Shown piece by piece: positions 27,238-45,937 of a stretch of DNA of 64,000 bases. The notes below the pieces were generated by a model. The model saw nothing but the letters and a program-made list of their open reading frames with translations. It was not told where the DNA came from and did no database searches. The DNA is from Frankiales bacterium (GTDB lineage: Bacteria > Actinomycetota > Actinomycetes > S36-B12 > CAIYMF01). Positions within the stretch are counted from its first letter, which is position 1; the number at the start of each line of letters is the position of its first letter. The DNA lies in the NCBI GenBank assembly GCA_016125335.1, contig WGLY01000035.1, positions 1-64,000 of the forward strand, read 5' to 3'. A program made the translations under genes and the position numbers.

Positions 27238-27281
27238 GGTGGCCAGGGGCGGGGTCGAACCGCCGACCTTCCGATTTTCAG
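27238..27281 (-). repeat. attL: displaced 3' fragment of tRNA-Phe
   Basis: Forty-four bases identical to 47347-47390. They cover the anticodon-loop end, variable loop, T arm and acceptor 3' side of tRNA-Phe plus part of the encoded CCA. Identity stops at 27282, where the element sequence begins. It is not a functional tRNA. Confidence 0.95.
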
Positions 27282-27663: not shown

Positions 27664-30600
27664 TCAGATGCGGAGGTAGTAGTCGTCGTCTGCGTCCGGC
27701 GTGGGCGAGTCGCCGATGAGGGCGCGTTCGAGCTCGTGGGGGTCCATCTCGAGGCTCTGGAGGTACATGCGCCGCAGGGGGCTGGTGTCGCGTTTCGCCT
27801 TCGGCTCGGGCCGGCCGGGGTGGAGGAGGGCGTCGATCTCGATGATGGCCGCGTCGACCTCCACGTCGATCTCCGGTGTGGAGGCAGGGTTCTGGAGGAG
27901 GTCGGGGGTGTCGACGGCCCAGGGGGTGCCGGCTTGCAGGGAGTCGCGGATGGGCAGCAGCCGCGACGGCTTGGTGGTGGCGTTCTGGTTGTCGCGGAGG
28001 GTCTCGGTGGCGGAGCGTTCGCGGTCCCTGTGAGCGATGATCCCGGCCAGGACGTCCAGGGCGGTGGGGTCGGGTCGTCCGGGGTCGGGGATCTCGTCGT
28101 GACCGTGGTCGGGGGTGTCGAGGGGGACGTAGAGCCGGTTTGAGTCGCTGCCGCGGGTCATCGCGACGTAGAGGGCTTCGCGGCTCATGCCGGGGGTTAC
28201 CAGGACGTGGGCGTGGTCGACGGTGACGCCTTGAGCGCGGTGGATGGTGGTGGCGTAGCCGAGCTCGAGATGGTCGCGGACATACGTCGCCGGCAGCAGG
28301 ACCCGCTCCTCGCCTCTCCCGACCTCGCGACCCGTCTCGTCGCGGACGGCGGTGACGGCGCCGTCGGGGTGGGTGGCGGTGATGGTCCACCTGTCGCCGT
28401 TGCGGACGTGCTGCCCCCCGGTGGTCAGCAGGCGTCGGTCGTTGCGGCGGGTGAGCACGACGTCGCCTACTCCGACCGAGACGCCGTCGGCAGCCGGGAC
28501 CTCGGTGGTGGGGTCGACGCATCCGGCCGCGAGCCGGTCCTGGTGGGCGCGTTCGTTCAGCTGGCTGACGGTGTCGGTGTCCGCCGCGAGCAGCAGGGTC
28601 GACGCGTCCGCCGCCTGGTCGTGGGTCCAGGCGTCGTAGGCGGCGTCGAGGACCTCGTCGCTCGTGCCCGCTGTGATGCGCCGCTGCGACTCGTAGACGT
28701 CGAGGACGGATGGGTCGCCGTGGCGCAGGCGTCGGGTGGCGTGGGCCTCCCAGCGGTGGGTGAACCGCCACAGCGAGGTGAGCTCGCGGGCCTGCGCTGT
28801 GGCGGCGAGGAGGCCGAACGCGCCGCCGGCGTCGACGGCGGACAGCTGGTGGTGGTCCCCGACGAGCAGCACCTTCGCCGCGGCGGCGGTGGCCTGGGTG
28901 GTGAGGTCGTCGAGGGTGAGGGTTCCGGCCAGGGAGGCCTCGTCGACGATGAGGAGCTGCCCGGGTTCCAGTGTCCAGGCCGAAGCGGTGCGCCGGACCT
29001 CGGCGATGCCGCGGGCGACGCGGTTGGCGGCGCTGGTGTCCCCGGTCCGTCGGCAGGCCAGTTCGGAGTCGCGGAGGTGGTCGAGGTGGCGTTGGCGTTC
29101 CTGTCCGCCGGGGCCGGTGGTCTCGTGCAGCCATTTCGCGGTGTTCTCGCACCCGATCCCGAGTCTCGCGGACAGCTCGGCTGCGGCCGTCGCGGAGGGA
29201 GCGAGCCCGACGACCGACCCACGCCCGAACTGCGCCTCCCACGTACTGCGCAACGCGGCGAGGGTGGTGGTCTTGCCGGTGCCGGCTGGGCCGACCAGGA
29301 CGTCGACGCGGCGCCCGGACGTCGCGATCGCGACGACGGCGTTCGCCTGGTCCGCTGCCAGCTTGACTCCGGAGCTGTCGCCCGCGTGCCGCGGCGGAGG
29401 GCCGATCGCGGCGGACGAGATGACGGACGGTTCCACGGGCGACGACGAGGCGGCGGACTGGCCGACGGACGGGTCCGAGCCGACGGACGAGCCGACGAGC
29501 GAGACGGCGGACGGCGCGATGGAGGGGGCGGTGAGGTCGTCGAGGGCGGCGAGGAGGCGGGCTTCGGCGTCGAGGATGGCAGGGTGGGTGTAGAGGTCCT
29601 GGCCGGGGCGGGTGAACACGGACACGCCGTCGGGGGTGAGGAAGGCGGCGGGGACGGTGAACACCTCCGGCGTCTCGAGGCTGATGCACTGGTCGAGCGC
29701 GGCGGCCACGATGCGGTCGTGCAGGGCGTGCCGGTCGGTGGTGGTGGCGCAGCGGATCGGGCGGGTGGCGCGGGCGGCTTCGGCGAGCAGGTTCCACCGG
29801 GTCCAGGTCGAGCGCCGGTCCAGGACGGCGGTCAGGGTGGTCGCGGCGAGGTCGGCGATCACCGGGTCGGGGATCTCGGCGTCGGCCCAGGCGCGGGCGG
29901 ACCGGTGGGGTTCGGTCCTGCGGAGGCCGGGTTTGATCTCGTACTTGTTGAGCAGGCGGACGGCGTCGGCGCCGGTCATGGCTGGTTCCCCGCCGAAGGG
30001 GATGCGTGGGTGGATGTCCCCGGCGTAGATGCCCCGCGGCGGCGGCACCTCGGCGGACCAGAGCCGGAGCCGGTCGGTCTCCGACACTCCCTCGAGCATC
30101 CGCTCGGCCTGGCGTCGGCGGGTGAGGTTGCGGTGCTCGCCGGCCTCGCCGAGCCGGGCCAGGATCGGCAGGAGCGGTCCGGTCACGTGCTCGGGCAGGT
30201 CGGCGATCAGGGCCGCGGCGCGCACCCGCCACCAGGCGACCAGCTCGGCCAGCGCGTGAACGGTCTTGGCCGGTCGGGTGGCGAGGGTGAGCTTCTGTCG
30301 CAGCCGGGTGGTCTCCACCGGTGAGGGTGCGCGCCCGTTCCGGGCGCGGAACTCCGCGACAGCGCCAGTCATGCCGGCGTCGATCCCGCGGGTCCTCAGG
30401 GAGAACTCCTTCAAGACCCAGTCGGGGACGCCGTCGATCTCGAACCCGGGCGAGCGTCGTGGTCCGCGGTCCCGCAGCGACCAACGCACCGGGAGCACCG
30501 TTTCGAGGCGGTCGGCGAGGAGGTTGTCGTAGACCTCGGAGAACGCGACCGCGGCGTGGTGCAGGGCGCGGGAGTCCAGCGACCGCCACTGCCCGTCCAG

Positions 30601-31296
30601 GCCCTGGACCTTGTTGGCGATCACGACGTGGGAGTGCAGGTCGGGGTCGCCGAGGCGGGTGTCCCAGTGGTCGAACACCGCCGCGACCATCCCCTTCGTG
30701 GGGACCTGTGCGCAGGACCGGGCACCGACTCGGGTGAAGATCGCCCGGTCTTCGATCAGGGCGAGGGTGTCGCGGACCGCCGCCCGGTGCGCCTCGAGGA
30801 CGACCGCCTGGGTCGCGGCGTCCGAGAGGCCCCACAGGACGGAGGCGGACTTGCGGGCGGAGAAGGTCAGGTCGAACCCCGCTACCGCACCCCGCGTCCG
30901 CCGTCCGGACTCCGAACGGCGGACGGCGTCGACCGCGGCGGCCCGCTGTCCGTCCTCCAGGTCCGCGGGCAGGGCGGCGACGGCGTCGGCGATCCGCTGG
31001 CTCGAGCTGCGGAACACGGGGTAGGGGCGGCCGAGCGGGGTGTCCGTCGCCGGATCGTGGCCGGCGCCGAACAGGCGGGCCATCGCGTCCTCAGTGACGA
31101 CAGACCCCGCCAGCACGCGGTGCTCTTCGTCGCCCAGGCCCTCGAGGCCGGCGCCCCACCAGGTGCCCGGCGGGTAGCCGGACTCCGCGTAGTACGCCGT
31201 CAACGGCTTGGCTGGATCACGCGGCACGTCGCCGCACGCCGTATGACGAACCAGGTACTGGTAGCCCGCGCCCGCCGACAGGCGCGCTATCGACAT
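27664..31296 (-). CDS. MobF-family relaxase with C-terminal helicase (TrwC/TraA-like)
   Basis: A relaxase-helicase that nicks and unwinds DNA at oriT for conjugative transfer. I choose the ATG at 31296, because MSIARLSAGAGYQYL is the MobF-type N terminus; a GTG at 31341 would add 15 residues. In the 1225-aa numbering from 31341, candidate catalytic tyrosines are Y27/Y29 and Y50/Y51, and the metal histidines H225, H236 and H238 lie in HWDTRLGDPDLHSHVVI. The RecD-like helicase follows: Walker A GPAGTGKTTTL (about 684), LLIVDEASL, GDHHQLSAVD, TIHRAQGVTVDH and YVAMTRG. A Ser/Pro/Val-rich linker joins the domains (about 615-660). All motifs look intact. It is the only transfer gene seen in the element. 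Confidence 0.93.
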   Translation of the reverse strand: MSIARLSAGAGYQYLVRHTACGDVPRDPAKPLTAYYAESGYPPGTWWGAGLEGLGDEEHRVLAGSVVTEDAMARLFGAGHDPATDTPLGRPYPVFRSSSQRIADAVAALPADLEDGQRAAAVDAVRRSESGRRTRGAVAGFDLTFSARKSASVLWGLSDAATQAVVLEAHRAAVRDTLALIEDRAIFTRVGARSCAQVPTKGMVAAVFDHWDTRLGDPDLHSHVVIANKVQGLDGQWRSLDSRALHHAAVAFSEVYDNLLADRLETVLPVRWSLRDRGPRRSPGFEIDGVPDWVLKEFSLRTRGIDAGMTGAVAEFRARNGRAPSPVETTRLRQKLTLATRPAKTVHALAELVAWWRVRAAALIADLPEHVTGPLLPILARLGEAGEHRNLTRRRQAERMLEGVSETDRLRLWSAEVPPPRGIYAGDIHPRIPFGGEPAMTGADAVRLLNKYEIKPGLRRTEPHRSARAWADAEIPDPVIADLAATTLTAVLDRRSTWTRWNLLAEAARATRPIRCATTTDRHALHDRIVAAALDQCISLETPEVFTVPAAFLTPDGVSVFTRPGQDLYTHPAILDAEARLLAALDDLTAPSIAPSAVSLVGSSVGSDPSVGQSAASSSPVEPSVISSAAIGPPPRHAGDSSGVKLAADQANAVVAIATSGRRVDVLVGPAGTGKTTTLAALRSTWEAQFGRGSVVGLAPSATAAAELSARLGIGCENTAKWLHETTGPGGQERQRHLDHLRDSELACRRTGDTSAANRVARGIAEVRRTASAWTLEPGQLLIVDEASLAGTLTLDDLTTQATAAAAKVLLVGDHHQLSAVDAGGAFGLLAATAQARELTSLWRFTHRWEAHATRRLRHGDPSVLDVYESQRRITAGTSDEVLDAAYDAWTHDQAADASTLLLAADTDTVSQLNERAHQDRLAAGCVDPTTEVPAADGVSVGVGDVVLTRRNDRRLLTTGGQHVRNGDRWTITATHPDGAVTAVRDETGREVGRGEERVLLPATYVRDHLELGYATTIHRAQGVTVDHAHVLVTPGMSREALYVAMTRGSDSNRLYVPLDTPDHGHDEIPDPGRPDPTALDVLAGIIAHRDRERSATETLRDNQNATTKPSRLLPIRDSLQAGTPWAVDTPDLLQNPASTPEIDVEVDAAIIEIDALLHPGRPEPKAKRDTSPLRRMYLQSLEMDPHELERALIGDSPTPDADDDYYLRI

Positions 31297-31360: not shown

Positions 31361-31406
31361 TGCTCGCGAGACGGCCGAGATCGAGTCAGCCACCGACGAA
31401 AGCTCC

Positions 31407-31679
31407 GTGGAGCCAGACGTGTATCCGATCTCGGGTGTTGGGGCGGACTCGCTGAGGGACAGCGGGTGCGTCATGAGTGCGGCGATGGGATGCAGCTCGT
31501 GGGCGGAGCTGACTCGAGTTCCTGTTGATCAGGTGGTGTCGGTCTGCGAGCTCGCTCGTTCACGCCTGTGGGATCTGCCGGTGTTCGAGGACATCGTGAG
31601 TGTCTCGGTGCCGGTGGACGGGTCGACTGTCGTGGTGATGGGTGAAGTGGCCGCGGAGCAGCTACGGTTGGATGCGTAG
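31407..31679 (+). CDS. Hypothetical small protein
   Basis: A possible 90-aa protein (or shorter from ATG 31473) read divergently from the relaxase. The central part, SWAELTRVPVDQVVSVCELARSRLWDLPVF, looks alpha-helical and the end EDIVSVSVPVDGSTVVVMGEV looks like beta strands. I do not recognise a family, and there is no strong ribosome site. It could be a small accessory protein of the relaxase or a chance frame. Confidence 0.35.
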   Translation: MEPDVYPISGVGADSLRDSGCVMSAAMGCSSWAELTRVPVDQVVSVCELARSRLWDLPVFEDIVSVSVPVDGSTVVVMGEVAAEQLRLDA

Positions 31680-31759: not shown

Positions 31760-32602
31760 TCACCTTGGGCGCTGGTCGGTCTCGACGTCGCGGCGGGTGA
31801 GGGCGAGGTAGGTGACGAGGGCGGCGATCGCCAGGCTCCACAGCACGGTGACGAGACCGGTGCCGAGGCCGATGCCGCCACGCGAGGGTGGCAGCGCCAG
31901 CCAGTCCGCGTAGGACGCGCCCAGCGGCCGGGTGATGATGTAGGCGGTCCAGAACGTCGTGATCTCCGCGGCGCCGAAACGGGATTGAGCGACCAGCGGG
32001 ATCGCGAACAGCACCGAGAACACGATCCCGGAAGTGAGGTAGCCCCAGCCGAAGGTGACGGCCGTCATGTCCCCTGCGGCGGTGCCTAGCGCGAAGCTGG
32101 CCAGGACCGTGCCCCAGTAGAACAGCTCGCGGGGCTTGGTGTGGATGCTGTGAATCGACAGGGTGCCCTCGTGGGACCGCCACTGCCAGAGGATGACCGC
32201 AAGCGCAACAGTGAACGCGGTGGTCGACACGAGGTAGGGGATCCCGATCCCTACGTGGAGGACGTCCGCTGCCATCGTGCCGAAGACGCTCACCATCGCG
32301 ACCGCGAGCCAGTACTTCCACGCGACGTAGGTCCGTGAACGCATCTGAATGACGAACGAGACTGCGAACCCGGCGAACCCCAGCGGCAGGGATATCAGCG
32401 GGCCGATGGCGTGGACCAGGAAGTCGGATGCCGTCTCACCCATCCCGGTGGTGAGGATCTTGATGATCCAGAAGAACGCGGTGATCTCCGGGACCTTGCT
32501 GCGCGGGTGCCGCGGCGTGGTGACGGGGCCGCACACGACCGGAATGGGGGCGGTGTCGTCGTGGGTGAACGCATAGGGCACCCGGTCGCGCTCAGGCGTC
32601 AT
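31760..32602 (-). CDS. COG4705-like integral membrane protein
   Basis: A protein of about 280 aa with around eight hydrophobic segments. The opening KVPEITAFFWIIKILTTGMGETASDFLV and the later repeat-like GIPYLVSTTAFTVALAVILWQW and WGTVLASFALGTAAGDMTA are typical of the uncharacterised COG4705 membrane protein family, whose biochemical function is not known. The ATG at 32602 is chosen; a further ATG at 32656 is possible. It lies on the same strand as, and about 100 bp downstream of, the PAP2 phosphatase, which suggests co-transcription in the envelope-related cargo. Confidence 0.8.
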   Translation of the reverse strand: MTPERDRVPYAFTHDDTAPIPVVCGPVTTPRHPRSKVPEITAFFWIIKILTTGMGETASDFLVHAIGPLISLPLGFAGFAVSFVIQMRSRTYVAWKYWLAVAMVSVFGTMAADVLHVGIGIPYLVSTTAFTVALAVILWQWRSHEGTLSIHSIHTKPRELFYWGTVLASFALGTAAGDMTAVTFGWGYLTSGIVFSVLFAIPLVAQSRFGAAEITTFWTAYIITRPLGASYADWLALPPSRGGIGLGTGLVTVLWSLAIAALVTYLALTRRDVETDQRPR

Positions 32603-32702
32603 CGGCAGTCCTGTGGTTGACCCTTGAGTTGGGGCAGGGCGGGCGACGATTCGCAATTCGCGAAGGCGCCTCTTGACCGGTTGGCCGGCGGGTGTCGGCG
32701 CG

Positions 32703-33323
32703 TCATGCGTTGGGGGAGGGGTGCGCGACGACCAGGGGGCGGAAGGACCGGTAGCCGGCCAAGCGAGTCACCAGTGCGGTGAGCAGTCGTCCGACGGCAA
32801 GCCACCCGAGAACGGAGATCATCGCACCGACGAGAAGTCCGGCGACGACGTCGCCGGGGTAGTGGGCGCCCACGTAGACCCGAGCGAATGCCAGCAGCAC
32901 GGCCAGCACCGTTCCTGTGACCGCCAGGCCGCGAGTCCGCGGCCCCGCGTACCGGCCGATGATCCACAGCCCCGCTGCCGCGGCGCCTGCGGTGACGGCG
33001 TGATCGGACGGGAACGAGTAGTCGCTGCTCTTCACGACCAGAACCTCGACGCCGTGCAGGGTGAGATAGGGCCGAGGCCGGGCCACGACCCCACCGATGA
33101 GCTGGTTGATACCGACCGCGACCACGGTGCCGGCTCCGGCCCACAGCGCCGCTGCGACACCACGAGCCGGGTCGTCCTGCGACCGTGCGAGCCACCACCC
33201 AATGGCGACCAGGACCGCGAAGACGGCTACCCCGTAGACGGCGTAGACGGTGAGGACCCCGTGCAGCCACGGAGTGCGCACCGCGAAGTCGTTCACGTCC
33301 AGATACCAGCTGGCGTCCACCAC
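32703..33323 (-). CDS. PAP2-family membrane phosphatase
   Basis: A 206-aa polytopic protein with the three-part PAP2 signature: ARPRPY after the second helix (KxxxxxxRP-like), SFPSDHAVT (PSGH-like with Asp) and ARVYVGAHYPGDVVAG (SRxxxxxHxxxD-like). Such enzymes dephosphorylate phosphatidate or undecaprenyl pyrophosphate at the membrane. Together with a second PAP2 protein at 42413-43348 it may support lipid-carrier recycling. It is the upstream gene of the COG4705-like protein. Confidence 0.85.
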   Translation of the reverse strand: MVDASWYLDVNDFAVRTPWLHGVLTVYAVYGVAVFAVLVAIGWWLARSQDDPARGVAAALWAGAGTVVAVGINQLIGGVVARPRPYLTLHGVEVLVVKSSDYSFPSDHAVTAGAAAAGLWIIGRYAGPRTRGLAVTGTVLAVLLAFARVYVGAHYPGDVVAGLLVGAMISVLGWLAVGRLLTALVTRLAGYRSFRPLVVAHPSPNA

Positions 33324-33601
33324 AGTCCCCTCCCGGAGAGTCGTCCACGAACGCCAGCACCCGGAGACGACGAGGGAAGCGTGCCCGGACGTGTCCCGCC
33401 CGGCAGACAGTGCGGTGATTCTAGGATTCCACCGCAGCGCCTACCTGAGGACCCAGTGACTCGTACTTATGAGGGCACTGAGAAACCGATCCAACCTCGT
33501 GTGTGCGTCCCGGTCGTGGCAGATCGCGCGCTCGAGCCCGTCCGAATCCGTGCGACGCTTGGAGCCGGCGATCACGATCCGATACGGGAAGGACCTCGAG
33601 G

Positions 33602-33820
33602 ATGCGCACGAGCGGTGCAACGAGGGGCGGCGTCCCGGCGTGGACGGTGTGGATGCTCGCAGTCCCGGGGGTTCTCGCCGTCTGCGCCGCACTCCTCGAC
33701 TTCGACGACAAGCCCACGGGCGGCGTGCCGCTGCGCGCCCGGATCGGCGTACTCGGGCTCGCTTTGCTCGCGATGGCCTGGACCGCCAGTGCCGCTACGC
33801 GGCGGCGTCCCCGTTGGTGA
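33602..33820 (+). CDS. Small two-helix membrane protein
   Basis: A possible 72-aa protein with two hydrophobic segments, VWMLAVPGVLAVCAALL and IGVLGLALLAMAWTASA, separated by a short polar loop, ending in Arg-rich residues. The ATG at 33602 follows AAGGACC. No family is recognised. Small membrane proteins of this sort are common as regulators or partners of transporters. Confidence 0.45.
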   Translation: MRTSGATRGGVPAWTVWMLAVPGVLAVCAALLDFDDKPTGGVPLRARIGVLGLALLAMAWTASAATRRRPRW

Positions 33821-34075
33821 GTTCGGAGAGCCAAGCAGCCACGAGCCCCACCGCTCCAGCGGTAGCTCGCACGCATGGGCGACGCGCGAGGACCGGCGGT
33901 CCCGGCCCGATCAGCCCGCACGGAGCTCAAGCCGTCCCGCAAAGGTCGTATCCCTGGATGGATGTGCTCTGTGTTGTTCGTGGCGAGGCCATCCGCAGGT
34001 GAGGCGTGGCCCGGTCCAGGAGCGCGCCTGATCGGCTGCTGAGCACCGGTCCATGACCCGGAGACTAGGGCGGCC

Positions 34076-34427
34076 TCACGCTCGGCCCCGTCTACGCAAC
34101 AGGGCCATCACCACCTCAACGATCTCATCGGCCGCTGCGGTCATGGTGACCACTTGGTCCACTCCGCCGCACAGCGGGTCGATGCGCTTTGGTGGACTGC
34201 CGTCAAACCGAACGGCGAGCAACGGAACTCTTCCGCCGATGGTGTTGCTTCGCCTTGGGTCGGTGCGCCGGCTGTCCGTCACGACGACGTCGATCGAGGT
34301 TTCGTGGATACGAGGTTCCCGTGGCGTCGCGACGATGAGCGCGAACAGGGTCAACCGGCGGCGAGCTCCGAGGCCAGGGTGCGTCGCTGATGTCGATGAG
34401 CACGACCGGCGGCGCCGGCTCGCTCAT
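34076..34427 (-). pseudogene. Frameshifted receiver-like protein
   Basis: An ATG at 34427 with AGGAG upstream begins MSEPAPPVVLIDISDA, while the frame that reads from about 34380 down to the stop at 34076 continues LTLFALIVATPREPRIHETS, IDVVVTDSRR, VPLLAVRF and GGVDQVVTMTAAADEIVEVV. Together they resemble a small receiver-like domain. The 352-bp span is one base over a multiple of three, so a net +1 shift is needed; TLASELAAG in the third frame at the junction suggests two small indels. It is probably a decayed response regulator or an orphan receiver. Confidence 0.5.
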
Positions 34428-34662
34428 GGGGGCTCCTGACATGGACGTGGTCAACAAGGCCCCCAGGTGTTGACGGTCGCGCATGATCGCTGTTTCGCGA
34501 CTGCGCGCGATGCGTCACAGTTTCAACTGCAGCGCATTCTCAGGATTTCAACGTTGGCAAGACCGCAGTGGTGGCAGCTACGCGATGTCACGGTGGTTCG
34601 GGCTGTCGACGGCCGTGTCGATGCGCTCGTCGACGATCTAGCGAAGACCCATTCTTGTTGCT

Positions 34663-35946
34663 CTACTGATCGACAGGGGGCAGCAGAAGGGTGAACTGAG
34701 TGGTGGGCTCCCGTTGGCTGAGCCGAAGTCGGCCACCACCGTCTTCGGCGAGACCGCGCGCCAGTGCTAGCCCAATGCCGCTGCCGCCGCCGTGGGAGAC
34801 GCCGCGGGCAAAGACGTCCAGATCGAAGGGGATGCCGTGTCCGTCGTCACGGACGTCGATGGCGATGGCCCCGCCTACAGGACGGGCTGTCATAGTCACG
34901 GCTCCCGCACCATGTCGAAGCGCATTGTCGAGGAGGACGTCGAGGATCTGGCGCAGCGCCGATTCGGTGAACCGAACGGGTGGACAGCCTTCCGTCAACC
35001 GGAGGCGCAATGGACGACCAGCGGCAGCGAGCGGTGGACCCCAGCGCAAGACGGCGGCGTCAAGCACGGCCGTCACCTCGACAGCCACGTTGGGGGGGCT
35101 GTTTCCACGTGTCAGATCGATGAGTTCCGCGATCGTCAGCTCCAACTGGTCCGCAGCCCTGATGGCAGTCCGAGCTGCCGTGGTCAGATCGGCGGAAGGG
35201 TCGGACAGCGCGGATTCCAGCGAGGCGCGAAGTCCACTGAGCGGGGTTCGCAGCTGGTGCGAGGCGTTGGCGGCGATCTGCTGCTCGCGGCGCACGAGGT
35301 CACCGATCCGCTCCGCTGTGGCGTTGAGCGAGTTGCCGGCGTCGTCGATCTCCGGCATGCCGGTGGGTGTGGTTCGAACATCGAAGTCGCCGTCACCGAG
35401 CCGGTGAGCGGTCAACGCGAACTCCTCCAGGGGACGGTTCACCCGTCGGGCCAGCACCCGTGCGGCGAGGATCGCGATGCCGATCGCCAGCGCCGCGGCA
35501 AGGACCATCGCAGCCCAGGTGAGCGCGGTGCGCCGCCATACCTCGGCGATCGGCGCCGCGGTGCGGACTGCGCCGACGACCTGCTCGGCTGATGACACCG
35601 GCACCGAAACGATGATCCAGCCGCCGGACAAGTCCTGGCCCACACCACCGCCGAGCGCCGTCGCCGTAGCAGGGTCGGCTCGATCCGGTCCGGAGCCGCT
35701 GATGCGCAGCCCACGCGGGTCGTAGAGGCCGAGCTGCTCCCCGGCACCTGGATCGGGCAATTCGGCCGGGTCGCGACCGGCGAAGTCCGGGCCGATGCCG
35801 ATCGCCGTTCTTAGCGCCGTGCGCTCGAGGGCGACCTGCGCGTCACCGAGGTAGATGCGTTGGACGGCGATGCCCAGCGGCAGTGCGAACAGGGCAACCG
35901 CAAGGACCGCGCTGGCCAGTGCAACCCGCACGATGCGTCGTCTCAT
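34663..35946 (-). CDS. Sensor histidine kinase
   Basis: A 427-aa membrane kinase: TM1 about 7-29, extracytoplasmic sensor domain about 30-140, TM2 about 142-166, HAMP to about 220, then the H-box ANASHQLRTPLSGLR with phospho-accepting H230, N-box LLDNALRHGAG, and G-boxes DDGHGIPFD and GGGSGIGLALARGLAEDGGG. It is divergent from the lipoprotein-ABC operon at 36064, with the most likely partner regulator at 40819-41544 on the far side of that operon. AGGGAG precedes the ATG. It probably senses envelope stress or the transporter substrate (inference). Confidence 0.92.
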   Translation of the reverse strand: MRRRIVRVALASAVLAVALFALPLGIAVQRIYLGDAQVALERTALRTAIGIGPDFAGRDPAELPDPGAGEQLGLYDPRGLRISGSGPDRADPATATALGGGVGQDLSGGWIIVSVPVSSAEQVVGAVRTAAPIAEVWRRTALTWAAMVLAAALAIGIAILAARVLARRVNRPLEEFALTAHRLGDGDFDVRTTPTGMPEIDDAGNSLNATAERIGDLVRREQQIAANASHQLRTPLSGLRASLESALSDPSADLTTAARTAIRAADQLELTIAELIDLTRGNSPPNVAVEVTAVLDAAVLRWGPPLAAAGRPLRLRLTEGCPPVRFTESALRQILDVLLDNALRHGAGAVTMTARPVGGAIAIDVRDDGHGIPFDLDVFARGVSHGGGSGIGLALARGLAEDGGGRLRLSQREPTTQFTLLLPPVDQ

Positions 35947-36063
35947 GCAGGCTCCCTGAACGGCGACGCAGCGTTAACCGTCCGCTTGCCATGCGCGATC
36001 CGAGCGTTAGCCAGCACGTCCCTAGCGTGACAGACGCACACCCTCACAACCTCGGAGGACTCC

Positions 36064-36738
36064 ATGGCCCGACCTCGCGTTGGCACCACGATCGCGTTAG
36101 GAGTGCTGGGCCTGACGCTGGCCGCCTGCGGGACGACAGCGCCCGCACCCGTAGCGGTGACGAGCACTCCGTCGGGATCCGCGACAAGTCCCGCACCGAC
36201 CACGTCGGGGAGCACGTCATCAGCGCCTCCCACCTCAGCCGCGCCCTCCCCCGCGGTGACGGAGAGCAACCCGCCCGGCGACATCCCCGACAACCAGGCT
36301 TACGTGACCTACCAAGGTGTGAGTGGGCACTACACCGTCGAGGTTCCGGAGGGCTGGGCGCGCACATCAGGCGGGGCCTCGGCGTCGTTCACCGACAAGC
36401 TCAACGCCATCACTGTGGTGGAGTCGTCGGCGCCGAGCGCCCCGACCGCCACGTCGGCGACGGCGACGCAGGTGCCGGCGCTTGCCTCCAGCGTGCCGAA
36501 GTTCCAGCTGGTCAAGGTCGCGCCGTTCACCCGAGCCGGAGGGTCAGGCGTGCTCATCACCTACCTCGCTGACTCGCCCGCCAACCCAGTCACCGGCAAG
36601 GTCGTCCGCGACGCCGTCGAGTCCTTCCTCTTCTGGAAAAACGGCCAGCTCGTGACCTTGAGCCTGTCCGGCCCGCAGAGCGCCGACAACGTTGATCCGT
36701 GGGCGAAGGTCAGCGATTCCTTCCGGTGGACCCCGTGA
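36064..36738 (+). CDS. Lipoprotein of the ABC export operon
   Basis: A 224-aa lipoprotein. The signal peptide ends at the lipobox LTLAAC (Cys22), followed by a Ser/Thr/Pro/Ala-rich linker to about residue 75, and then a compact domain starting QAYVTYQGVSGHYTVEVPEGWART that resembles LpqN/LpqT-like Mycobacterium lipoprotein domains. It is probably anchored to the outside of the membrane, working with the permease encoded downstream. GGAGG lies 5 bp before the ATG. The first ABC ATPase gene overlaps its stop by 4 bp. Confidence 0.88.
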   Translation: MARPRVGTTIALGVLGLTLAACGTTAPAPVAVTSTPSGSATSPAPTTSGSTSSAPPTSAAPSPAVTESNPPGDIPDNQAYVTYQGVSGHYTVEVPEGWARTSGGASASFTDKLNAITVVESSAPSAPTATSATATQVPALASSVPKFQLVKVAPFTRAGGSGVLITYLADSPANPVTGKVVRDAVESFLFWKNGQLVTLSLSGPQSADNVDPWAKVSDSFRWTP

Positions 36739-37406
36739 CCGGCACAGTGCATGCCGCGTTGGAGGCACGGGATCTCTACCGGTTCTTCCGCGCCGGCGAA
36801 GAGGAGACCCTGGCTCTGCGCGGCGTCTCGTTGACCGTGCAGTCCGGTGAGATCGTGGCCGTCGTCGGGCCGTCCGGCTCGGGCAAATCCACCCTGCTCG
36901 GCTGCCTCGCCGGGTTGGACGAACCTGCCGGTGGCACGGTGTGGATCGACGGGGAACGGATCAGCCACCGCTCCGAAGCCGAACGGGCCGCTGTGCGCGC
37001 ACGATCAGTCGGTGTGCTGTTCCAGGTCGGCAACCTCATCGAGCACCTCACCGTCAGTGAGAACGTCGCACTGGCGCAACGATTGAGTACCGGAGAAGCA
37101 CCCGACCCCACGGTCGTGATCGACCGGGTGGGGTTGGGTGCACGGGCCGAGGCATACCCCTCCCAGCTCTCGGGTGGGGAGGCTGCCCGAGCCGGACTGG
37201 CGGTCGCGCTGGCCAACGACCCCACGGTGCTCCTCGCTGACGAGCCGACCGGCGAGCTCGACGGCGAGACCGAGCAGCGGCTCCTCGCGCTCCTGCGCAC
37301 CCGCGCCAACGCCGGGTGCGGCGTCCTGCTGGTCACGCACAGCCCCGACGTGGTGGCGATCGCCGACCGCGTCGTCACCCTCTCCGACGGACAGGTCGTC
37401 TCATGA
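36735..37406 (+). CDS. ABC transporter ATPase (MacB/LolD-like), first
   Basis: A 223-aa ATPase with Walker A GPSGSGKST, Q-loop VLFQVGNLI, signature LSGGEAARAGLAVAL, Walker B VLLADEPTGELD and switch His VTHSPD, all intact. It belongs to the MacB/LolD/FtsE-like class that energises FtsX-type permeases. The GTG start overlaps the lipoprotein stop by 4 bp (36735-36738). Unusually, a second complete ATPase follows before the single permease gene, suggesting a heterodimer. Confidence 0.93.
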   Translation: MTGTVHAALEARDLYRFFRAGEEETLALRGVSLTVQSGEIVAVVGPSGSGKSTLLGCLAGLDEPAGGTVWIDGERISHRSEAERAAVRARSVGVLFQVGNLIEHLTVSENVALAQRLSTGEAPDPTVVIDRVGLGARAEAYPSQLSGGEAARAGLAVALANDPTVLLADEPTGELDGETEQRLLALLRTRANAGCGVLLVTHSPDVVAIADRVVTLSDGQVVS

Positions 37407-38158
37407 ACGCACAAGCAAGTGCTCCCTCGGCCGTCACCGCAGCGACGCCGGGCCGCGCCGCCACGCCCGGAACGCTGATCGAGATGCATGATGTCGCGCT
37501 GACCTATGGAACGGGGTCGACGGCGGTCGTCGCGATCCACGGCGCGACCTGCCAGGTAGCTACCGGGGCGAGGCTGACCATCACCGGCCCCTCGGGGTCG
37601 GGGAAGTCCACCTTGTTGCACCTCATGGCCGGACTCGAGCGACCGACCACCGGTTCGGTGACCTGGCCGGCGCTGGGGGAGGACCCGCTCGGTCGGCCCG
37701 GGCTCGTCGGCGTCGTCTTCCAAGGGCCGAGCCTCATCCCCACCCTCGACGTCGCCGAGAACGTCGCCCTTCCCCTCGTCCTGGCTGGGACAGCGGATCG
37801 GGTCGCGCACGAGCTGGCGATGGACGCACTGGACACCTTGGAGATCGACGATCTCGCCAGCAAGCTCCCCGACGAGCTCTCCGGCGGCCAGGCCCAGCGG
37901 GTGGCCATCGCACGAGCCATGGCCACCCGCCCGGTGCTCATCCTCGCCGACGAACCCACCGGTCAGCTCGACCGAGCAACCGGCGTGCACGTGATCGACG
38001 TCCTGCTCGGGGCGGGCGACCTGCTCGGCGCCGCCGTGGTGATCAGCACCCACGACCCGGCGGTCTCCGACCGGCTGACCACGCAGTGGCGGATCAGGGA
38101 CGGCGTGCTGTCCACGACCGACTCGTCCACCCCGCACGATCGAGGAGTGACCCGATGA
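37403..38158 (+). CDS. ABC transporter ATPase (MacB/LolD-like), second
   Basis: A 251-aa ATPase with Walker A GPSGSGKST, VVFQGPSLIPTLDVAENVALPL, canonical signature LSGGQAQRVAIARAMA, Walker B ILADEPTGQLD and switch STHDP. An N-terminal Ala/Thr-rich extension of about 25 residues precedes the core. The ATG overlaps the stop of the first ATPase by 4 bp and its own stop overlaps the permease start by 4 bp, so all are translationally coupled. It differs clearly from the first ATPase, so this is not a recent duplication. Confidence 0.93.
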   Translation: MNAQASAPSAVTAATPGRAATPGTLIEMHDVALTYGTGSTAVVAIHGATCQVATGARLTITGPSGSGKSTLLHLMAGLERPTTGSVTWPALGEDPLGRPGLVGVVFQGPSLIPTLDVAENVALPLVLAGTADRVAHELAMDALDTLEIDDLASKLPDELSGGQAQRVAIARAMATRPVLILADEPTGQLDRATGVHVIDVLLGAGDLLGAAVVISTHDPAVSDRLTTQWRIRDGVLSTTDSSTPHDRGVTR

Positions 38159-40815
38159 CCGGTACCTGGCTGCGCGGACTCCTGCGACGACGCCGCGGAG
38201 CCCTGATCGCGACCGCGTCCGGGATCGCGGTCGCGGTTGCCCTGTTGGCCTCATTGGGGGCGTTCCTCGCGGCCTCCAAGGCCACCATGACCGCCCGCGC
38301 AGCGTCAGGCGTCGTCGTCGACTGGCAGGTGCAGGCCGCCAGCGGTACAGACCCGGCCGCTGTCCTTGCCGCGACCCGTCGCGCCGACGGAGTGACGGCG
38401 GCGCTCCCGGTCCAGTTCGCCACGACAGACGGCTTCACCGCCACCACGGGCGGCACCCAGCAGAACACCGGTGTCGGTGTCGTTCTCGGGCTCCCCGCGG
38501 ACTACCGCACCGTGTTTCCAGGTGAGATCCGCACGCTGTCGGGGTCCCCGGACGGCGTCCTGGTCGCGCAGCAGACGGCGTCGAACCTGCACGTGGCCCC
38601 TGGCGACAAGGTCACGGTCGCGCGTGCCGGCCTCCCCTCGGTGACTGTGACGGTCGCGGGCGTGGTCGATCTCCCCTACGCGGACTCCCTGTTCCAGAAG
38701 GTTGGTGCCCCCCCGCAGTCCCAGCCCGCCGCGCCACCGGACAACGTGATGCTCATGCCCGCGTCCACGTTCGCGTCGACGATGGCCCCGCTGTCCGCGA
38801 CGCGACCGGACCTCGTGACGACTCAGGTCCATGTCGCACACACCCACGACCTGCCGCCCGACCCGGCCGAGGCCTACATCGCGGTGACGGCGGCCGCGCA
38901 CAACCTCGAGGCCACGCTCGCGGGTTCCGGACTGGTGGGCGATAACCTCGCCGCATCACTGGACGGGGCGCGCAAGGACTCCCTGTACTCCCAGGTCCTG
39001 TTCCTCTTCCTGGGACTCCCCGGCGCGATCCTGGCCGGGATCCTGACCGCCGCGATCGCGGGTGCCGGAGCCGTGCGCCGGCGACGCGAGCAGGCGTTGC
39101 TGCGTGCCCGCGGAATGAGCGTGCGCCAGGTCGTGCGCCTCGCGGCGGTCGAGGCGCTGCTCGTCGGCGTGGTCGGTGGCATCGTGGGGCTTGGTGTGGC
39201 CGCGGCGATCGGCCGGTTTGCCTTCGGCGCCTCGGGATTCGGGGCCTCCACCACGAGTGCCTTGAGTTGGACTGTCGGCGCGTTCGTCGTGGGTCTCCTC
39301 ATCGCCGTGGTCGCCGTCCTGGTCCCGACGGTGCGGGACTTCCGCGAGAGCACCGTGACGGGTGCCCGGGCGCGGGTGCACCGGGAACGGGCACCTCGCT
39401 GGATGCGCTTCGGCCTCGACATCATCATGCTCGCGGGCGCCGCCGTGATGTTCGCGATCACCAGCCAGGCCGGCTACAGCCTCGTGCTCGCCCCGGAAGG
39501 GGTCGCCACGATCTCGGTCAGCTACTGGGCCTTCCTCGGCCCGGCTCTGCTGTGGATCGGCGTCGCCCTGCTGGCCTGGCGCATCGCCTACGTCGTCCTG
39601 GGGCGAGGTCGACCGGTCGTCGCCCGCGCGATCCGGCCGCTGACGGGCAACCTGTCCTCGACGACCGCCGCCGGGCTCTCCCGGCAGCGAACCATCGTGG
39701 CGCGCGCGGTCGTACTGGTGGCTCTCGCGGTCTCCTTCGCCGCCTCGACGGCCACCTTCAACGCCACCTACAAGGCGCAGGCGGAGGTCGACGCCCGGCT
39801 TACCAACGGCGCCGACATCGCGGTGACCCAGTCCCCAGGCTCCAACGTAGGGCCGGACGGGGCGGCCGCCATCGCGTCGGTCCCGGGTGTGATCAGCGTG
39901 GAACCGCTGCAGCACCGCTTCGCCTACGTCGGTGCCGACCTGCAAGACCTCTACGGCGTCCGACCGGCCACGATCGGTGCCGCGACATCACTGCAGGACG
40001 CGTACTTCCAGGGCGGAACAGCTGCGCAGCTCATCGGTCGCCTCGCCGCGCAGCCCGACGCGATTCTGGTCAGCGACGAAACGGTCAAGGACTTCCAGCT
40101 CTCGCCGGGCGACCTCATCCGGCTCCGCCTGCAGGACGGGCAGACCAAGAAGCTCATCACCGTGCCGTTCCACTATGCCGGCATCGCCAAGGAGTTCCCG
40201 ACCGCACCGCACGACAGCTTCTTCATCGCCAACGCCGACTACATCGCCAAGGCCACCGGAAGCAACGCCGTCGGAGCGTTCCTCGTCGACACCGGGGGTC
40301 AGAACACCGCCGCAATCGCGACAGCTCTTCAGGACAAGCTCGGCGCTGCGGCACATGTGACCGACATCGGATCGACCCGCTCGGCGATCGGGTCCAGCCT
40401 GACCTCGGTCGACCTCGCCGGTCTCACACGCGTCGAGCTCGGGTTCGCGCTCGTACTGGCCGCAGCCGCCGGCGGTCTCGTCCTGGCGCTCGGGCTCGCC
40501 GAACGCCGTCGCACCTTCGCGATCGCCAGCGTGCTGGGTGCGACGGGGCGGCAGCTGCGGGGGCTCGTTCTCAGCGAGGCGGTGATCGTGGTTGTCGGCG
40601 GGATCGCAGCGGGAGCGGTGAGCGGATGGCTGCTCTCCCAGATGCTCGTGACCGTGCTCACCGGTGTCTTCGACCCGCCGCCGGAGAAGCTGTCGGTGCC
40701 GTGGCCGTATCTGGCGACGACGGTTCTCGTGGCGGCTCTTGCCATCGGTGCTGCGGCCCTCATGGCTGCTCAGCGGTCGCGCCGCCCGGCGGTGGAAGCG
40801 CTGCGAGGACTCTGA
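38155..40815 (+). CDS. Large FtsX-family ABC permease
   Basis: An 886-aa permease with the double MacB/LolE-like arrangement: TM1 (about 17-41), a large extracytoplasmic domain (about 42-275), a cluster of membrane segments (about 280-500 with the coupling loop RRRREQALLRARGMSVRQVVRLAAVEALLVG), a second external domain (about 530-740), and a last three-helix FtsX block ending ALMAAQRSRRPAVEALRGL. Both halves show the FtsX-typical ERRRTFAIASVLGATGRQLRG signature. Such permeases move lipids, peptides or lipoproteins or act as mechanotransmission devices. It forms one complex with the two upstream ATPases and the lipoprotein by operon logic. Confidence 0.92.
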   Translation: MTGTWLRGLLRRRRGALIATASGIAVAVALLASLGAFLAASKATMTARAASGVVVDWQVQAASGTDPAAVLAATRRADGVTAALPVQFATTDGFTATTGGTQQNTGVGVVLGLPADYRTVFPGEIRTLSGSPDGVLVAQQTASNLHVAPGDKVTVARAGLPSVTVTVAGVVDLPYADSLFQKVGAPPQSQPAAPPDNVMLMPASTFASTMAPLSATRPDLVTTQVHVAHTHDLPPDPAEAYIAVTAAAHNLEATLAGSGLVGDNLAASLDGARKDSLYSQVLFLFLGLPGAILAGILTAAIAGAGAVRRRREQALLRARGMSVRQVVRLAAVEALLVGVVGGIVGLGVAAAIGRFAFGASGFGASTTSALSWTVGAFVVGLLIAVVAVLVPTVRDFRESTVTGARARVHRERAPRWMRFGLDIIMLAGAAVMFAITSQAGYSLVLAPEGVATISVSYWAFLGPALLWIGVALLAWRIAYVVLGRGRPVVARAIRPLTGNLSSTTAAGLSRQRTIVARAVVLVALAVSFAASTATFNATYKAQAEVDARLTNGADIAVTQSPGSNVGPDGAAAIASVPGVISVEPLQHRFAYVGADLQDLYGVRPATIGAATSLQDAYFQGGTAAQLIGRLAAQPDAILVSDETVKDFQLSPGDLIRLRLQDGQTKKLITVPFHYAGIAKEFPTAPHDSFFIANADYIAKATGSNAVGAFLVDTGGQNTAAIATALQDKLGAAAHVTDIGSTRSAIGSSLTSVDLAGLTRVELGFALVLAAAAGGLVLALGLAERRRTFAIASVLGATGRQLRGLVLSEAVIVVVGGIAAGAVSGWLLSQMLVTVLTGVFDPPPEKLSVPWPYLATTVLVAALAIGAAALMAAQRSRRPAVEALRGL

Positions 40816-40818
40816 TCC

Positions 40819-41544
40819 TCAGGTGTCCGTTGGAGGATCGAGGCGGTAGCCGTGCCCGCGCAGCGTTGTCACTGCGGGGAGCGCGGCTATCGCTTCGGCA
40901 CCTGCGAGGGCTGCCGCGTCGGAGAGCTTGCGCCGCAGTGCGACCATGTGAACGTCGAGGGTCTTGGTCGAGCCGAACCAGTGCTCGTCCCACACGTCGC
41001 TCATCAGCGTCTCGCGGCTCACCGCGACGCCCGCGTCGGTCGCGAGTCGCAGCAGCAGGTCAAGCTCACGCGCACGGAGCCCCACCTCGACCTGGGCCAC
41101 GTGAACCCGACGCGAGGCGACGTCGATGACCAGGGAGCCCAGTCGGAGTTCCGCGGGCTGAGCGGGTACAGACAACGCAGTGTTGGACCGCCGCAAGTGG
41201 GCACGAATGCGGGCCAGCACCTCGCTGACCTTGAACGGCTTCGTGAGGTAGTCGTCCGCGCCGGCGTCCAACCCGGAGATCACGTCCATCTCGTCCTGGC
41301 GTGCCGTCAGGATCACGATCACCGCAGTCGGCTGGCGGCTCCTGAGCTCGCGGCACACGTCGATGCCATCGCGATCGGGCAGTCCAAGATCGAGGAGTAC
41401 CAGGTCGGCCCCGGCTTCGCGGGCCTCGATCAGGCCGCTGCCGCCGGAGCGATGCCAACGGACCTGGTACCCGCTCGCGCCCAGGGCAGATTCGAGCGCG
41501 GCACCGATCGTGTCGTCGTCCTCGATCAGCAGGATGCGGGCCAC
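40819..41544 (-). CDS. OmpR-family response regulator
   Basis: A 241-aa regulator with a receiver domain (acidic IEDDD at 8-12, phospho-acceptor D52 in LLDLGLPDRDG, LTARQDEMD, conserved Lys in YLTKPF) and an OmpR-like winged helix (LRARELDLLLRLATDAGVAVSRETL and LRGHGYRLD). Its 3' end meets the permease gene with a 3-bp gap. It and the kinase at 34663-35946 flank the ABC operon, so they are the likely sensor-regulator pair of that operon. Kinase and regulator being split by 4.9 kb is unusual. Confidence 0.92.
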   Translation of the reverse strand: MARILLIEDDDTIGAALESALGASGYQVRWHRSGGSGLIEAREAGADLVLLDLGLPDRDGIDVCRELRSRQPTAVIVILTARQDEMDVISGLDAGADDYLTKPFKVSEVLARIRAHLRRSNTALSVPAQPAELRLGSLVIDVASRRVHVAQVEVGLRARELDLLLRLATDAGVAVSRETLMSDVWDEHWFGSTKTLDVHMVALRRKLSDAAALAGAEAIAALPAVTTLRGHGYRLDPPTDT

Positions 41545-42412: not shown

Positions 42413-43348
42413 ATGACGTCCATGTCGCGACGCGCGACCGTGTCGATCTCGGCTGTCGCTCTCGTCGTGCTCTACGCGCTCATCACCTTCGTCCCCCGCC
42501 TCGCGTCGGTGGATCGTTCGGCGTTCGCCGGCCGGTTGGACAGCGGAACCAGGTTGATCGTCATGGAGCGCCTTGCCTTGTCGACGATCACGATCTTGAC
42601 CCTGTCCGCGGGTCTACTCGTGGTCTGCGGGCGAACGTATCGACGGCAAGGGCTTGGGCCCGCGTTGCGCATGGCGACCGCCGTGGTCGGTGCCGTCGTG
42701 TCCGCCGAGCTGCTCAAGCACTTCCTGCCGACCGCATCAGGCACCTCGCCGCTGGGGCTGGTCGTTGCCGGCGGGTCGTTCCCGAGCGGGCACGCCACCA
42801 TCGCCACCGGGTTCGCTCTCGCCCTGGCATCCACGTTGGGCCCGAAGCTCGCGCGCCGGTGGTGGGGGCCCCTCGTCGCCTGGGTGAGCCTCGTCGCCGC
42901 AGGCACTGTGGCAGCGGGGTGGCATCGCCCCAGCGACGCCGTCGGCGGTGTCCTGCTCGCGGTGATCTGGCACGCGGCACTGGTACGCGGGCGCGAGGCC
43001 GACGAGGCAACTGCCGCTGCGGCTACACGGTCGCGAGTGGGTGTTCCGATTGCCGCCTTGATCTCAGGGTGGGGCTGGTGGGCGGCGATGGCCACGGCGG
43101 TCATCGCTGGCGCCCTCGCTCCTCAGGCACGATCAGGTCACGAGCTCGGGGAGGCGGCCAGCCCGCTCTACCTTGTCGGCCTGGCCGCGGTGCTGGCCGC
43201 CACGGGGGCCTTGATACTCCTGGGTCCGTGGCGAGAACCGGCACTGCGGACGGGATCGTCGCGAGGCGCACGAGTGAGCGTCGAGCGAGTGATGCAGCCG
43301 CATACCGCAACTCAGCGTCGTCTCAGGCGGGATGAGAGACAGTGGTGA
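42413..43348 (+). CDS. PAP2-family membrane phosphatase with extra C-terminal helices
   Basis: A 311-aa protein with PAP2 motifs: ELLKHFLPTASG (KxxxxxxRP-like, degraded RP), SFPSGHATIATGFALAL (PSGH) and AAGWHRPSDAVGGVLLAV (histidine-Asp motif). Additional hydrophobic segments follow (about 205-225 and 250-275), longer than the usual PAP2 domain. The K/RP motif being partly altered leaves the catalytic status open. Its 3' end overlaps the following response regulator frame by 17 bp, indicating linked expression. It is the second lipid phosphatase of the element. Confidence 0.82.
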   Translation: MTSMSRRATVSISAVALVVLYALITFVPRLASVDRSAFAGRLDSGTRLIVMERLALSTITILTLSAGLLVVCGRTYRRQGLGPALRMATAVVGAVVSAELLKHFLPTASGTSPLGLVVAGGSFPSGHATIATGFALALASTLGPKLARRWWGPLVAWVSLVAAGTVAAGWHRPSDAVGGVLLAVIWHAALVRGREADEATAAAATRSRVGVPIAALISGWGWWAAMATAVIAGALAPQARSGHELGEAASPLYLVGLAAVLAATGALILLGPWREPALRTGSSRGARVSVERVMQPHTATQRRLRRDERQW

Positions 43349-44027
43349 GGTGAAGGTCCTGCTGGTCGACGACGAACCCAGGCTCGTCGACGCCGTGCAG
43401 CGCGGTCTGGCGGCCGAGGGCTTCCAAGTCGAGGTGGCCAGGGACGGCGAGCAGGGACTCTGGATGGCCTGTGAAGGCAGCTACGACGTCATCGTCCTAG
43501 ACATCATGCTGCCCAAGCTTAACGGCTACCGGATTTGTCAGAGACTCCGCGACGAGGAGATCTGGACGCCCGTCCTCATGCTCACGGCCAAGGACGGCGA
43601 GCATGACGAAGCGGACGCGTTCGACCTGGGAGCCGATGACTACCTGACGAAGCCGTTCTCCTTCGTTGTGCTGGTGGCGCGCCTGCGCGCGCTGCTACGT
43701 CGTGGTGCACCTGAGCGACCGGTCGTCCTGCAGGCCGGGGATCTCTCTCTGGACCCGGCGCGTCGCCACGTGCTTCGAGCAGACCAAGAGATTGCGTTGA
43801 CGCCCCGAGAGTTCGGGCTCCTGCACTTCCTTCTCCGACGCAAGGGCGACGTCGTCACCAAGAGCGAAATCCTCGCTGCCGTATGGGACGAGAACTACGA
43901 GGGAGATTCCAACGTCGTCGAGGTCTACATCGGCTACCTGCGCCGCAAGATCGACGCGCCCTTCGACCGGCAGGCCATCGAGACGGTGCGCGGCGTGGGC
44001 TACAGGCTCTCAGAAAGCGGAGGGTAG
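43332..44027 (+). CDS. OmpR-family response regulator (second)
   Basis: A 231-aa regulator: receiver domain with DDEPRLVDAV, phospho-acceptor D57 in VIVLDIMLPKLNG, LMLTAKDGEHDEAD and YLTKPFSFVVL; then an OmpR/PhoB winged helix (LTPREFGLLHFLLRRKGDVVTKSEIL, VYIGYLRRKID, TVRGVGYRL). ATG 43332 overlaps the PAP2 gene by 17 bp; a GTG at 43350 directly after the PAP2 stop is an equally good start and gives the usual VKVLLVDDE beginning. Its probable kinase is encoded convergently at 44088-45473. Confidence 0.92.
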   Translation: MRDSGEVKVLLVDDEPRLVDAVQRGLAAEGFQVEVARDGEQGLWMACEGSYDVIVLDIMLPKLNGYRICQRLRDEEIWTPVLMLTAKDGEHDEADAFDLGADDYLTKPFSFVVLVARLRALLRRGAPERPVVLQAGDLSLDPARRHVLRADQEIALTPREFGLLHFLLRRKGDVVTKSEILAAVWDENYEGDSNVVEVYIGYLRRKIDAPFDRQAIETVRGVGYRLSESGG

Positions 44028-44087: not shown

Positions 44088-45473
44088 TCATGCTTCCTGA
44101 GCCGGGAGGCGGACGACGAACCGTGCGCCGCTGGTCGAATCCTCCACAGCTACCGTTCCGCCGTGGGCGTGCGCCACCTCGAAGACAATCGCCAGACCCA
44201 GCCCTGCGCCACCGGAGAGGCGGTCCCGCGCCGGATCCAGGCGCACGAACCGGTCAAAGACGCGGTCTCGGTCCCCGACCGGTACCCCCGGCCCGTCGTC
44301 CTGCACGACCAAGACAGCCCACGCGCCCTCGATTCCGACCGAGAGAGCGACCGATGACGTCGCGTAGCGGGCGGCGTTGTCGCACAGGTTGCGCACCAGG
44401 CGTTCGAGCTGCTGACGATCGCCGGATACACGCGCGGGCGCTACGTCGACGGAGACGTCGATGTCTCCCAGCCGCGCAAGGCGATCTGCCTCCATGATCA
44501 TGAGGTCGTCGAGATCGACATCATGATGATCCTGGCGGCTGTCGATCTCGTCCGAGCGCGCGAGCAGCAGCAGGTCGTCCACCAGGGTACTGAGCCGATC
44601 GGTCTCGGCCAGAACCGCAGGGGCTGTATCGGCCCATGGCTGCGACCCGGGATGCTCCAGACCCACCTCGACGGTCGCTCGAATGGCCGCCAGGGGGCTG
44701 CGCAACTCGTGGCTGGCATCAGCGACGAACCGTCGCTGCGTGGCCTGGGAGTCCTGCAACCGATCCAGCATGCTGTTCATTGTGAGCGCGAGCCGACCTA
44801 CCTCATCGTCGGCAGCCGGCACCGGGACTCGCATGTCAAGGTCCGTCGCGCCGATCGCAGCGACCCGCCGACGGATCTCCTCGACTGGGCGGAGGGTTTT
44901 GCCCACGACGAAGTACACCGACGCGGCCACGACCAGCAGGACGACGGGGAATCCGAAGGCAAGAAGGCGTTCGACCGTGGTGACGCTGGCAACCACCGTG
45001 CCAAGCGATTGCGCAACGACCACGATCGCATCGCCGGTTGGCGTGTGAACTCCGCGCGACACGACGACGAACAACTCCTGGTCGGCCACCGGGACGCTCT
45101 GGGTGGAGACTTCGACAGTTCCAGGTGCCGGGCGGGCCGAGGTCAGTGCGGGCTCGCCGTCTATCTCGGGACTGGAGATCAACACGCTCCCTCGGGAGTC
45201 GAGAACCTGGACGACGGAGCGTTCGCTGAGGTTGCCGACGACGATCGCATCGCGGGCGGCTCCCTCCGCCGCCACCGACGTCGCCACGTCACTGGCACGC
45301 TGCTGCGCCGAGTCCCGGACCGTCTGGCTCAGCGACGCACGCAGGATCCACACCATGCCGATTGCCCCGATCGTCAGGGCTGTTGCGACGACGAGAGTCG
45401 CGGCGAGGGTCGAGCGCAGCCTCGCCCCGGGTGGGGCTACCACGCCAGCCCCGCGCCGATCGTGCTGCACCAA
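44088..45473 (-). CDS. Sensor histidine kinase (second)
   Basis: A 461-aa membrane kinase. TM1 about 22-45, an external sensor domain of about 120 residues, TM2 about 171-192, HAMP ([14 protein letters not shown]), H-box [15 protein letters not shown] with H255, N-box [11 protein letters not shown], and G-boxes [18 protein letters not shown] and [19 protein letters not shown]. It pairs with the OmpR-type regulator at 43332-44027, but the two genes run tail to tail with a 60-bp gap, so expression is not operon-coupled. Sensed signal unknown. Confidence 0.92.
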
Positions 45474-45727: not shown

Positions 45728-45937
45728 ATGAAGATGGACCACGAGGAAATGGCTGGGTTGCCGGCGCTGCTTGACGTCCCGGAGGCCGCCCGCGTGCTGG
45801 GCATCGGCCGATCATTGGCCTACGAGCTCGTGCGCCGCGGTGACTGGCCCACGGAGGTACTGAGGATCGGGAAACTCATCAAGATCCCAAGTGCGCCGCT
45901 CCTCCGGCTGCTGAGGGGGGACCGGCCACAACAGTGA
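45728..45937 (+). CDS. AlpA/excisionase-like helix-turn-helix protein
   Basis: A 69-aa protein with a MerR/AlpA-type winged helix: LLDVPEAARVLGIGRSLAYELVRRGDWPTEVLRIGKLIKIPSAPLLRLL matches the excisionase DNA-binding fold (HTH_17-like). It lies 161 bp upstream of the integrase in the same direction, the usual place for a recombination directionality factor. It probably directs excision with the integrase. Several ATG codons (45728, 45734, 45749) are possible starts. Confidence 0.88.
   Translation: MKMDHEEMAGLPALLDVPEAARVLGIGRSLAYELVRRGDWPTEVLRIGKLIKIPSAPLLRLLRGDRPQQ

Follow-up and report, generated by a model that had tools for sequence, protein, structure and literature searches.

Can a MobF relaxase gene that has no coupling or mating gene near it belong to an element that still moves between cells? 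The question arises from a 64,000-nucleotide stretch of a Frankiales bacterium (contig WGLY01000035.1, positions 1 to 64,000, hereafter the window), where such a gene lies within a 20.15-kb element at 27238-47390. The element is flanked by exact 44-bp direct repeats, encodes its own integrase and a relaxase, and showed no mating-pore or coupling genes by profile scan. It is very probably an integrative and mobilizable element (IME) of the relaxase-bearing type (iMOB). Judged from sequence, its most likely helper is an element with MobF, VirD4, VirB4-like and Tad genes on contig C1 of the same genome.

The element and its relaxase

The features that define the borders and the mobility functions are as follows.

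27238-27281: attL-like copy, 44 bp identical to the 3' part of tRNA-Phe (exact repeat)
27664-31296, minus strand: MobF (TrwC-type) relaxase-helicase gene, 1210 aa, ATG at 31296
31375-31434: putative origin of transfer (oriT) core, inferred, with a perfect 9-bp inverted repeat (31375-31383 / 31426-31434) around the nic-like CGTCTGGC at 31412-31419, minus strand
45728-45937, plus strand: excisionase-like helix-turn-helix protein, 69 aa (HTH_17 31.8 bits, cut-off 27; excise 21.7, under its cut-off of 28.8)
46099-47274, plus strand: tyrosine integrase, 391 aa (profile scans)
47347-47390: attR, 44 bp (exact repeat) within the intact tRNA-Phe gene 47346-47422, minus strand

The relaxase gene is open and intact. 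Its product exceeded the cut-offs of Pfam TrwC (272.5 bits, cut-off 25) and NCBIfam MobF (227.8 bits, cut-off 100), and it matched Pfam AAA_30 at 187 bits. Residue conservation was assessed in an alignment of 33 relaxases, comprising 23 of 28 loci found by tblastn, the five MobF genes of this genome and five from genomes G029 and G025; loci L027, L029, L042 and L044 (cut or short) and L046 were left out, and the L041 row is a 325-aa fragment. The three-His motif (His210/221/223) was kept in all 33 rows, and Tyr14 in 32, the remaining row being a gap. Tyr12 was kept in 26 rows, and both the Walker A Lys675 and the Walker B Asp/Glu in 32. With these profile matches, N-terminal tyrosines, three histidines and a C-terminal superfamily 1 helicase, the protein belongs to the MobF family, and its nearest relatives are actinobacterial. 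The intact relaxase and helicase motifs reported in the preliminary description were thus confirmed.

That description had also seen no coupling ATPase, TraB/FtsK translocase, mating-pore or Rep gene within the borders, and profile searches bore this out. Called genes of the element were scanned with Pfam and NCBIfam, and the whole genome (3.93 Mb, 99.7% complete) was searched in six frames. No match to type IV coupling protein (T4CP), FtsK/TraB, VirB4 or mating-pore families was found among the element genes scanned, a set that did not include every small open reading frame (ORF). Rep families likewise gave no match among these genes; no six-frame Rep search was run. Six-frame searches with PF02534, PF12696, PF01580 and PF12846 returned no match on the window contig, the T4CP, FtsK and VirB4 matches lying on other contigs. 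About 1.3 kb inside the element (33324-34662) holds no called gene; four ORFs from this stretch were compared with Pfam, and none scored above cut-off. The combination of T4CP, VirB4 and mating pore that marks a self-transmissible integrative and conjugative element (ICE) was therefore not detected inside the element.

The excisionase-like gene and the integrase adjoin the right, tRNA-Phe border. Sequence related to the integrase was found beside tRNA-Phe or its 3' fragment in 4 of 16 other family genomes searched (G029, 53% over 391 aa; G028, 71% over 153; G036, 86% over 98; G032, 62% over 53), which indicates that this site is in repeated use. The flanks at these relatives are short, and some stop at contig ends. 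A clean empty tRNA-Phe site was not found among the family genomes searched.

A candidate helper on contig C1

If the element relies on another conjugative element for transfer, as the preliminary description proposed, a helper may reside in the same genome, and the genome-wide search that it called for yielded one candidate. Six-frame profile searches detected a sole VirD4-type T4CP, at C1:166607-168418 (TraG-D_C, 94.2 bits). The same module encodes a VirB4-like ATPase (C1:164188-165465; PDB 4ag5, E 1.1e-8; NCBIfam VirB4 models under their cut-offs), a TrbL/VirB6-like protein (21.6 bits, under the Pfam cut-off of 25.9), an SCO6880-family protein (326.3 bits, cut-off 60), a DUF6112 protein and a transglycosylase. 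Tad-type genes (T2SSE, two T2SSF, TadE and a CpaB-like SAF protein) and a MobF relaxase gene (173301-176888) are also present. The candidate helper at C1:150630-169617 (L096, L011) combines a core like that of a type IV secretion system (T4SS; VirB4-like, VirB6-like, VirD4) with a Tad pilus cluster. Syntenic modules occur at G029:C63 and L023, and a syntenic core at L021.

A PF12846 search, whose one match was below cut-off and on contig C27, had first given the impression of a helper without VirB4; the PDB 4ag5 match at C1:164188-165465 overturned it. A reading of the helper as a Tad pilus instead of a T4SS was dropped because this protein is VirB4-like. At L021 no Tad genes were found in the DNA read, a further argument against that reading. 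G+C is 0.73-0.77 over the first 100 kb of C1 and 0.63-0.71 afterwards. Because C1 continues into this G+C-richer DNA, the helper probably lies integrated in the chromosome. The ends of C1 (1-60 and 184434-184493) are inverted copies of each other over ~59 bp, which probably means that the contig breaks off at a repeat.

The relaxases of the window element and of C1 are 64% identical over residues 1-375. They fall in one clade (support 1.0) with those of G029:C63, L021 and L023, all of which, like that of C1, adjoin a T4CP, and with L019 and L020, where no T4CP match was found in the 6.7 and 23 kb available. T4CPs around the 28 relative loci were sought by tblastn with the C1 protein only. The two genes also share an 11-mer, CGTCTGGCTCC, upstream. 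A shorter core, CGTCT[GT]GC, precedes all five MobF genes of the genome, on the same strand as the gene and no more than 203 bp away, against a background of 0.011 per 300 bp per strand; these five are not independent, the C32a and C25 relaxases (described below) being 69% identical. At C1 the core sits between 12-bp inverted-repeat arms, which none of 200 shuffles reached. The core may resemble the nic site of R388. It probably marks nic within a putative oriT.

Together these features suggest that the C1 coupling protein would recognize the window relaxase. In the proposed route, the integrase and excisionase would move the element into and out of the tRNA-Phe 3' end. The relaxase would nick the nearby oriT, probably at the CGTCT core at 31412-31419 on the minus strand, and its helicase domain would unwind the nicked strand. 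The relaxase-DNA complex would then be taken up by the coupling protein and channel of another element, most likely that of C1. Excision, nicking and mobilization are all predicted here from sequence.

Other MobF loci and alternative explanations

The genome holds five MobF genes: those of the window and C1, one on C25 (77356-80679), and two on C32 (C32a and C32b; 32615-36004 and 52346-55513). The C25 and both C32 genes are each followed by a tyrosine integrase related to that of the window, and the small genes between relaxase and integrase at these loci are excisionase-like by eye only. The C25 gene lies between 36-bp copies of a tRNA-Met 3' end (61993-62028 / 82665-82700). This stretch, C25:61993-82700 (L015, L016), is a second tRNA-bounded MobF element, with an integrase and ars genes (ArsA, ArsD, ACR3). 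When tRNA repeats were sought at the MobF loci outside the window, the tRNA-Lys of C1 gave none. At the left end of C1 (C1:290-1722), an integrase beside tRNA-Lys is 95% similar (467 aa aligned) to one in the C32:32615-57200 modules, and, on inspection by eye, a piece downstream of the C32b integrase matches the G029 tRNA-Lys 3' end. Both observations suggest elements at tRNA-Lys.

In genome G036, pieces of window-like tRNA-Phe integrase lie next to a relaxase from a different MobF subfamily, apparently divided between two contigs (G036:C16, L085; G036:C5, L108). At a contig end in this genome, a C32a-like relaxase (91% over 566 aa) has behind it 51 aa of a window-like integrase (76%). The case suggests exchange of integrase and relaxase modules.

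The arrangement of a MobF gene with a nearby integrase but no nearby T4CP is seen repeatedly in this genome and G029. Among 166 genomes of the order, MobF was matched in 23, PF12696 in 25 and both in 16 (Fisher p 4e-11, phylogeny not controlled). Of 56 MobF matches, 14 lay ≤30 kb from a T4CP match and 42 did not, a figure inflated by draft contigs and by matches that are pieces of one gene. A PF12696 match was present somewhere in 19 of the 22 genomes behind the 23 relative relaxase loci. The window element may be one of several MobF hitch-hikers that share one transfer system. In its fullest form this would be a guild of MobF satellites, four at the least (window, C25, C32a and C32b), with different integrases and cargoes, a common nic-like core and dependence on one resident Tad-coupled T4SS helper, a picture we hold tentatively and rate at slightly less than an even chance. 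If true, MobF satellites would form a widespread, little-described class of actinobacterial mobile DNA. The survey suggests that lone MobF genes in this order may often be satellites and not broken conjugative elements.

Several findings weigh against mobilization by C1 or against the proposed nic site. Neither the borders of the C1 element nor an integrase of its own were found. The nic-like motif was chosen after inspection of the data. Of 29 upstream 450-bp stretches, 11 had the core on the relaxase strand and 2 on the other strand; these stretches came from the five own MobF genes and 24 of the 28 relative loci (without L027, L029, L042 and L044, cut or short), for which tblastn match starts served as gene starts. 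It occurred in only 2 of 7 further upstream stretches and was absent upstream of G029:C14 and three G025 loci, and the G029:C63 helper has the variant CCTCTGGC at the corresponding place. The inverted repeat in the window is modest, its 9-bp arms being reached by 6 of 200 shuffles; for C32b the count was 23 of 200. Such counts are meaningful for the window, C1 and C32b alone, the remaining loci having no 8-bp arm. Finally, 7 of the 23 MobF-bearing genomes of the order had no T4CP match, most of them drafts in many contigs.

These seven genomes also favor a different helper. Relaxase-T4CP pairs are often specific, and mobilization of the element could fall chiefly to helpers in different hosts or to a plasmid missing from the assembly, with the C1 system not recognizing it. 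The window relaxase nevertheless belongs to the C1-type clade, and the 11-bp nic-like core is common to both loci; we consider this explanation unlikely, at perhaps one chance in a few. A remnant of a self-transmissible MobF ICE, now immobile after losing its genes for coupling and mating, would account for a relaxase that falls among those of larger transfer modules and for the stretch at 33324-34662 with no called gene. Set against this decay are the identical att repeats and the open relaxase, excisionase and integrase genes, and the repeated occurrence, here and in G029, of MobF plus integrase without a nearby T4CP speaks for a stable design. We regard a remnant as improbable. Transfer of double-stranded DNA by an FtsK/TraB route, as in actinomycete integrative and conjugative elements (AICEs), would suit an actinobacterial host and a tRNA-integrated element with Xis and Int. 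The only FtsK_SpoIIIE match of the genome is on another contig, C27, for which this reading was rejected; moreover, no Rep family was matched by the element genes scanned, and a relaxase is present. An AICE-like route is hardly credible here. The reading of the element as mobilizable and reliant on another conjugative element, as first described, is supported by the lack of a detected coupling ATPase or TraB-like protein within it, and C1 makes its predicted dependence on a helper directly testable within one strain.

Known systems and cargo genes

IMEs are already known as a kind, and MobF IMEs are little described. A 2017 review (PMC5704250) gives the canonical IMEs then known as using MobP, MobQ, MobV or MobC relaxases, none MobF, and just one such IME from Actinobacteria. 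As described there, they share with the window element an own relaxase and integrase, no coupling protein or mating-pair formation gene, and a tRNA 3' end as a common target, and differ in that their relaxases are not MobF. A 2021 study (PMC8627217) delimited 24 Mesorhizobium IMEs called MOBF, most with Ti-like traACD; those without it carried a virD4-like T4CP gene. Like the window element they have a relaxase called MOBF and tRNA-adjacent sites, including tRNA-Phe. Unlike it, and compared by description only, they are alphaproteobacterial and carry traACD or a virD4-like gene. PMC12857230 lists Ti TraA under MOBQ.

Closer in host are two actinobacterial cases, again as far as the accessible text describes them. 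MGE_MAG_063 from a marine survey (PMC11104534) is a mobilizable element of ICE type with a MOBF (and MOBT) relaxase in Microbacterium; it differs in being 60 kb and metagenome-assembled, with neither borders nor a helper given for it, and was compared by description only. 'Candidatus Leucobacter sulfamidivorax' GP (PMC6868719) has MOBF genes on contigs 7 and 9, judged mobilizable with no T4CP there, but these are known as contigs, one with a Rep gene, and not as delimited integrative elements. Excerpts of other papers mention 17 T4SS-type ICEs with MOBF identified in Actinobacteria (Ghinet et al. 2011, PMC3218068), a Rhodococcus relaxase of MobF type encoded in a horizontally acquired region, with tad genes elsewhere (PMC12915292), and the rarity of MOBF in Gram-positive bacteria (PMC12857230). 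In PAPI-1, according to the last source, a VirB4/VirD4 system works together with a type IV pilus, which makes it a loose precedent for the T4SS-like core and Tad pilus of C1. The modules at C1, G029:C63, L021 and L023 resemble the window element in their same-clade MobF relaxase and similar nic-like core (variant in G029:C63), and differ from it in their VirD4-type T4CP, VirB4-like ATPase, VirB6-like protein and transglycosylase, with Tad genes in C1, G029:C63 and L023. No MobF IME with a named helper in Actinobacteria was found in the accessible text of the open-licence literature searched, which does not in itself settle novelty in print. The present locus offers a delimited actinobacterial MobF IME together with a helper candidate identified by sequence and a short candidate nic site.

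Between the putative oriT and the excisionase-like gene lie the cargo genes.

31760-32602, minus strand: DUF347 protein (Pfam)
32703-33323, minus strand: PAP2 phosphatase resembling undecaprenyl-diphosphatases (under NCBIfam cut-offs for that likeness)
34663-35946, minus strand: sensor histidine kinase (Pfam/NCBIfam)
36064-36738, plus strand: lipoprotein-like ORF (N-terminus by eye; weak NCBIfam match, no Pfam match)
36726-37406, plus strand: ABC transporter ATPase, LolD/MacB-like (under NCBIfam cut-offs)
37484-38158, plus strand: second ABC transporter ATPase (profile scans)
38155-40815, plus strand: FtsX-type ABC permease (profile scans)
40819-41544, minus strand: response regulator (profile scans)
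42413-43348, plus strand: second PAP2 phosphatase (profile scans)
43332-44027, plus strand: second response regulator (profile scans)
44088-45473, minus strand: second sensor histidine kinase (profile scans)

This cargo resembles a sensing and export set that would respond to cell-envelope stress. The two PAP2 phosphatases, the ABC exporter and the two two-component systems possibly form a cell-envelope stress or peptide-antibiotic module.

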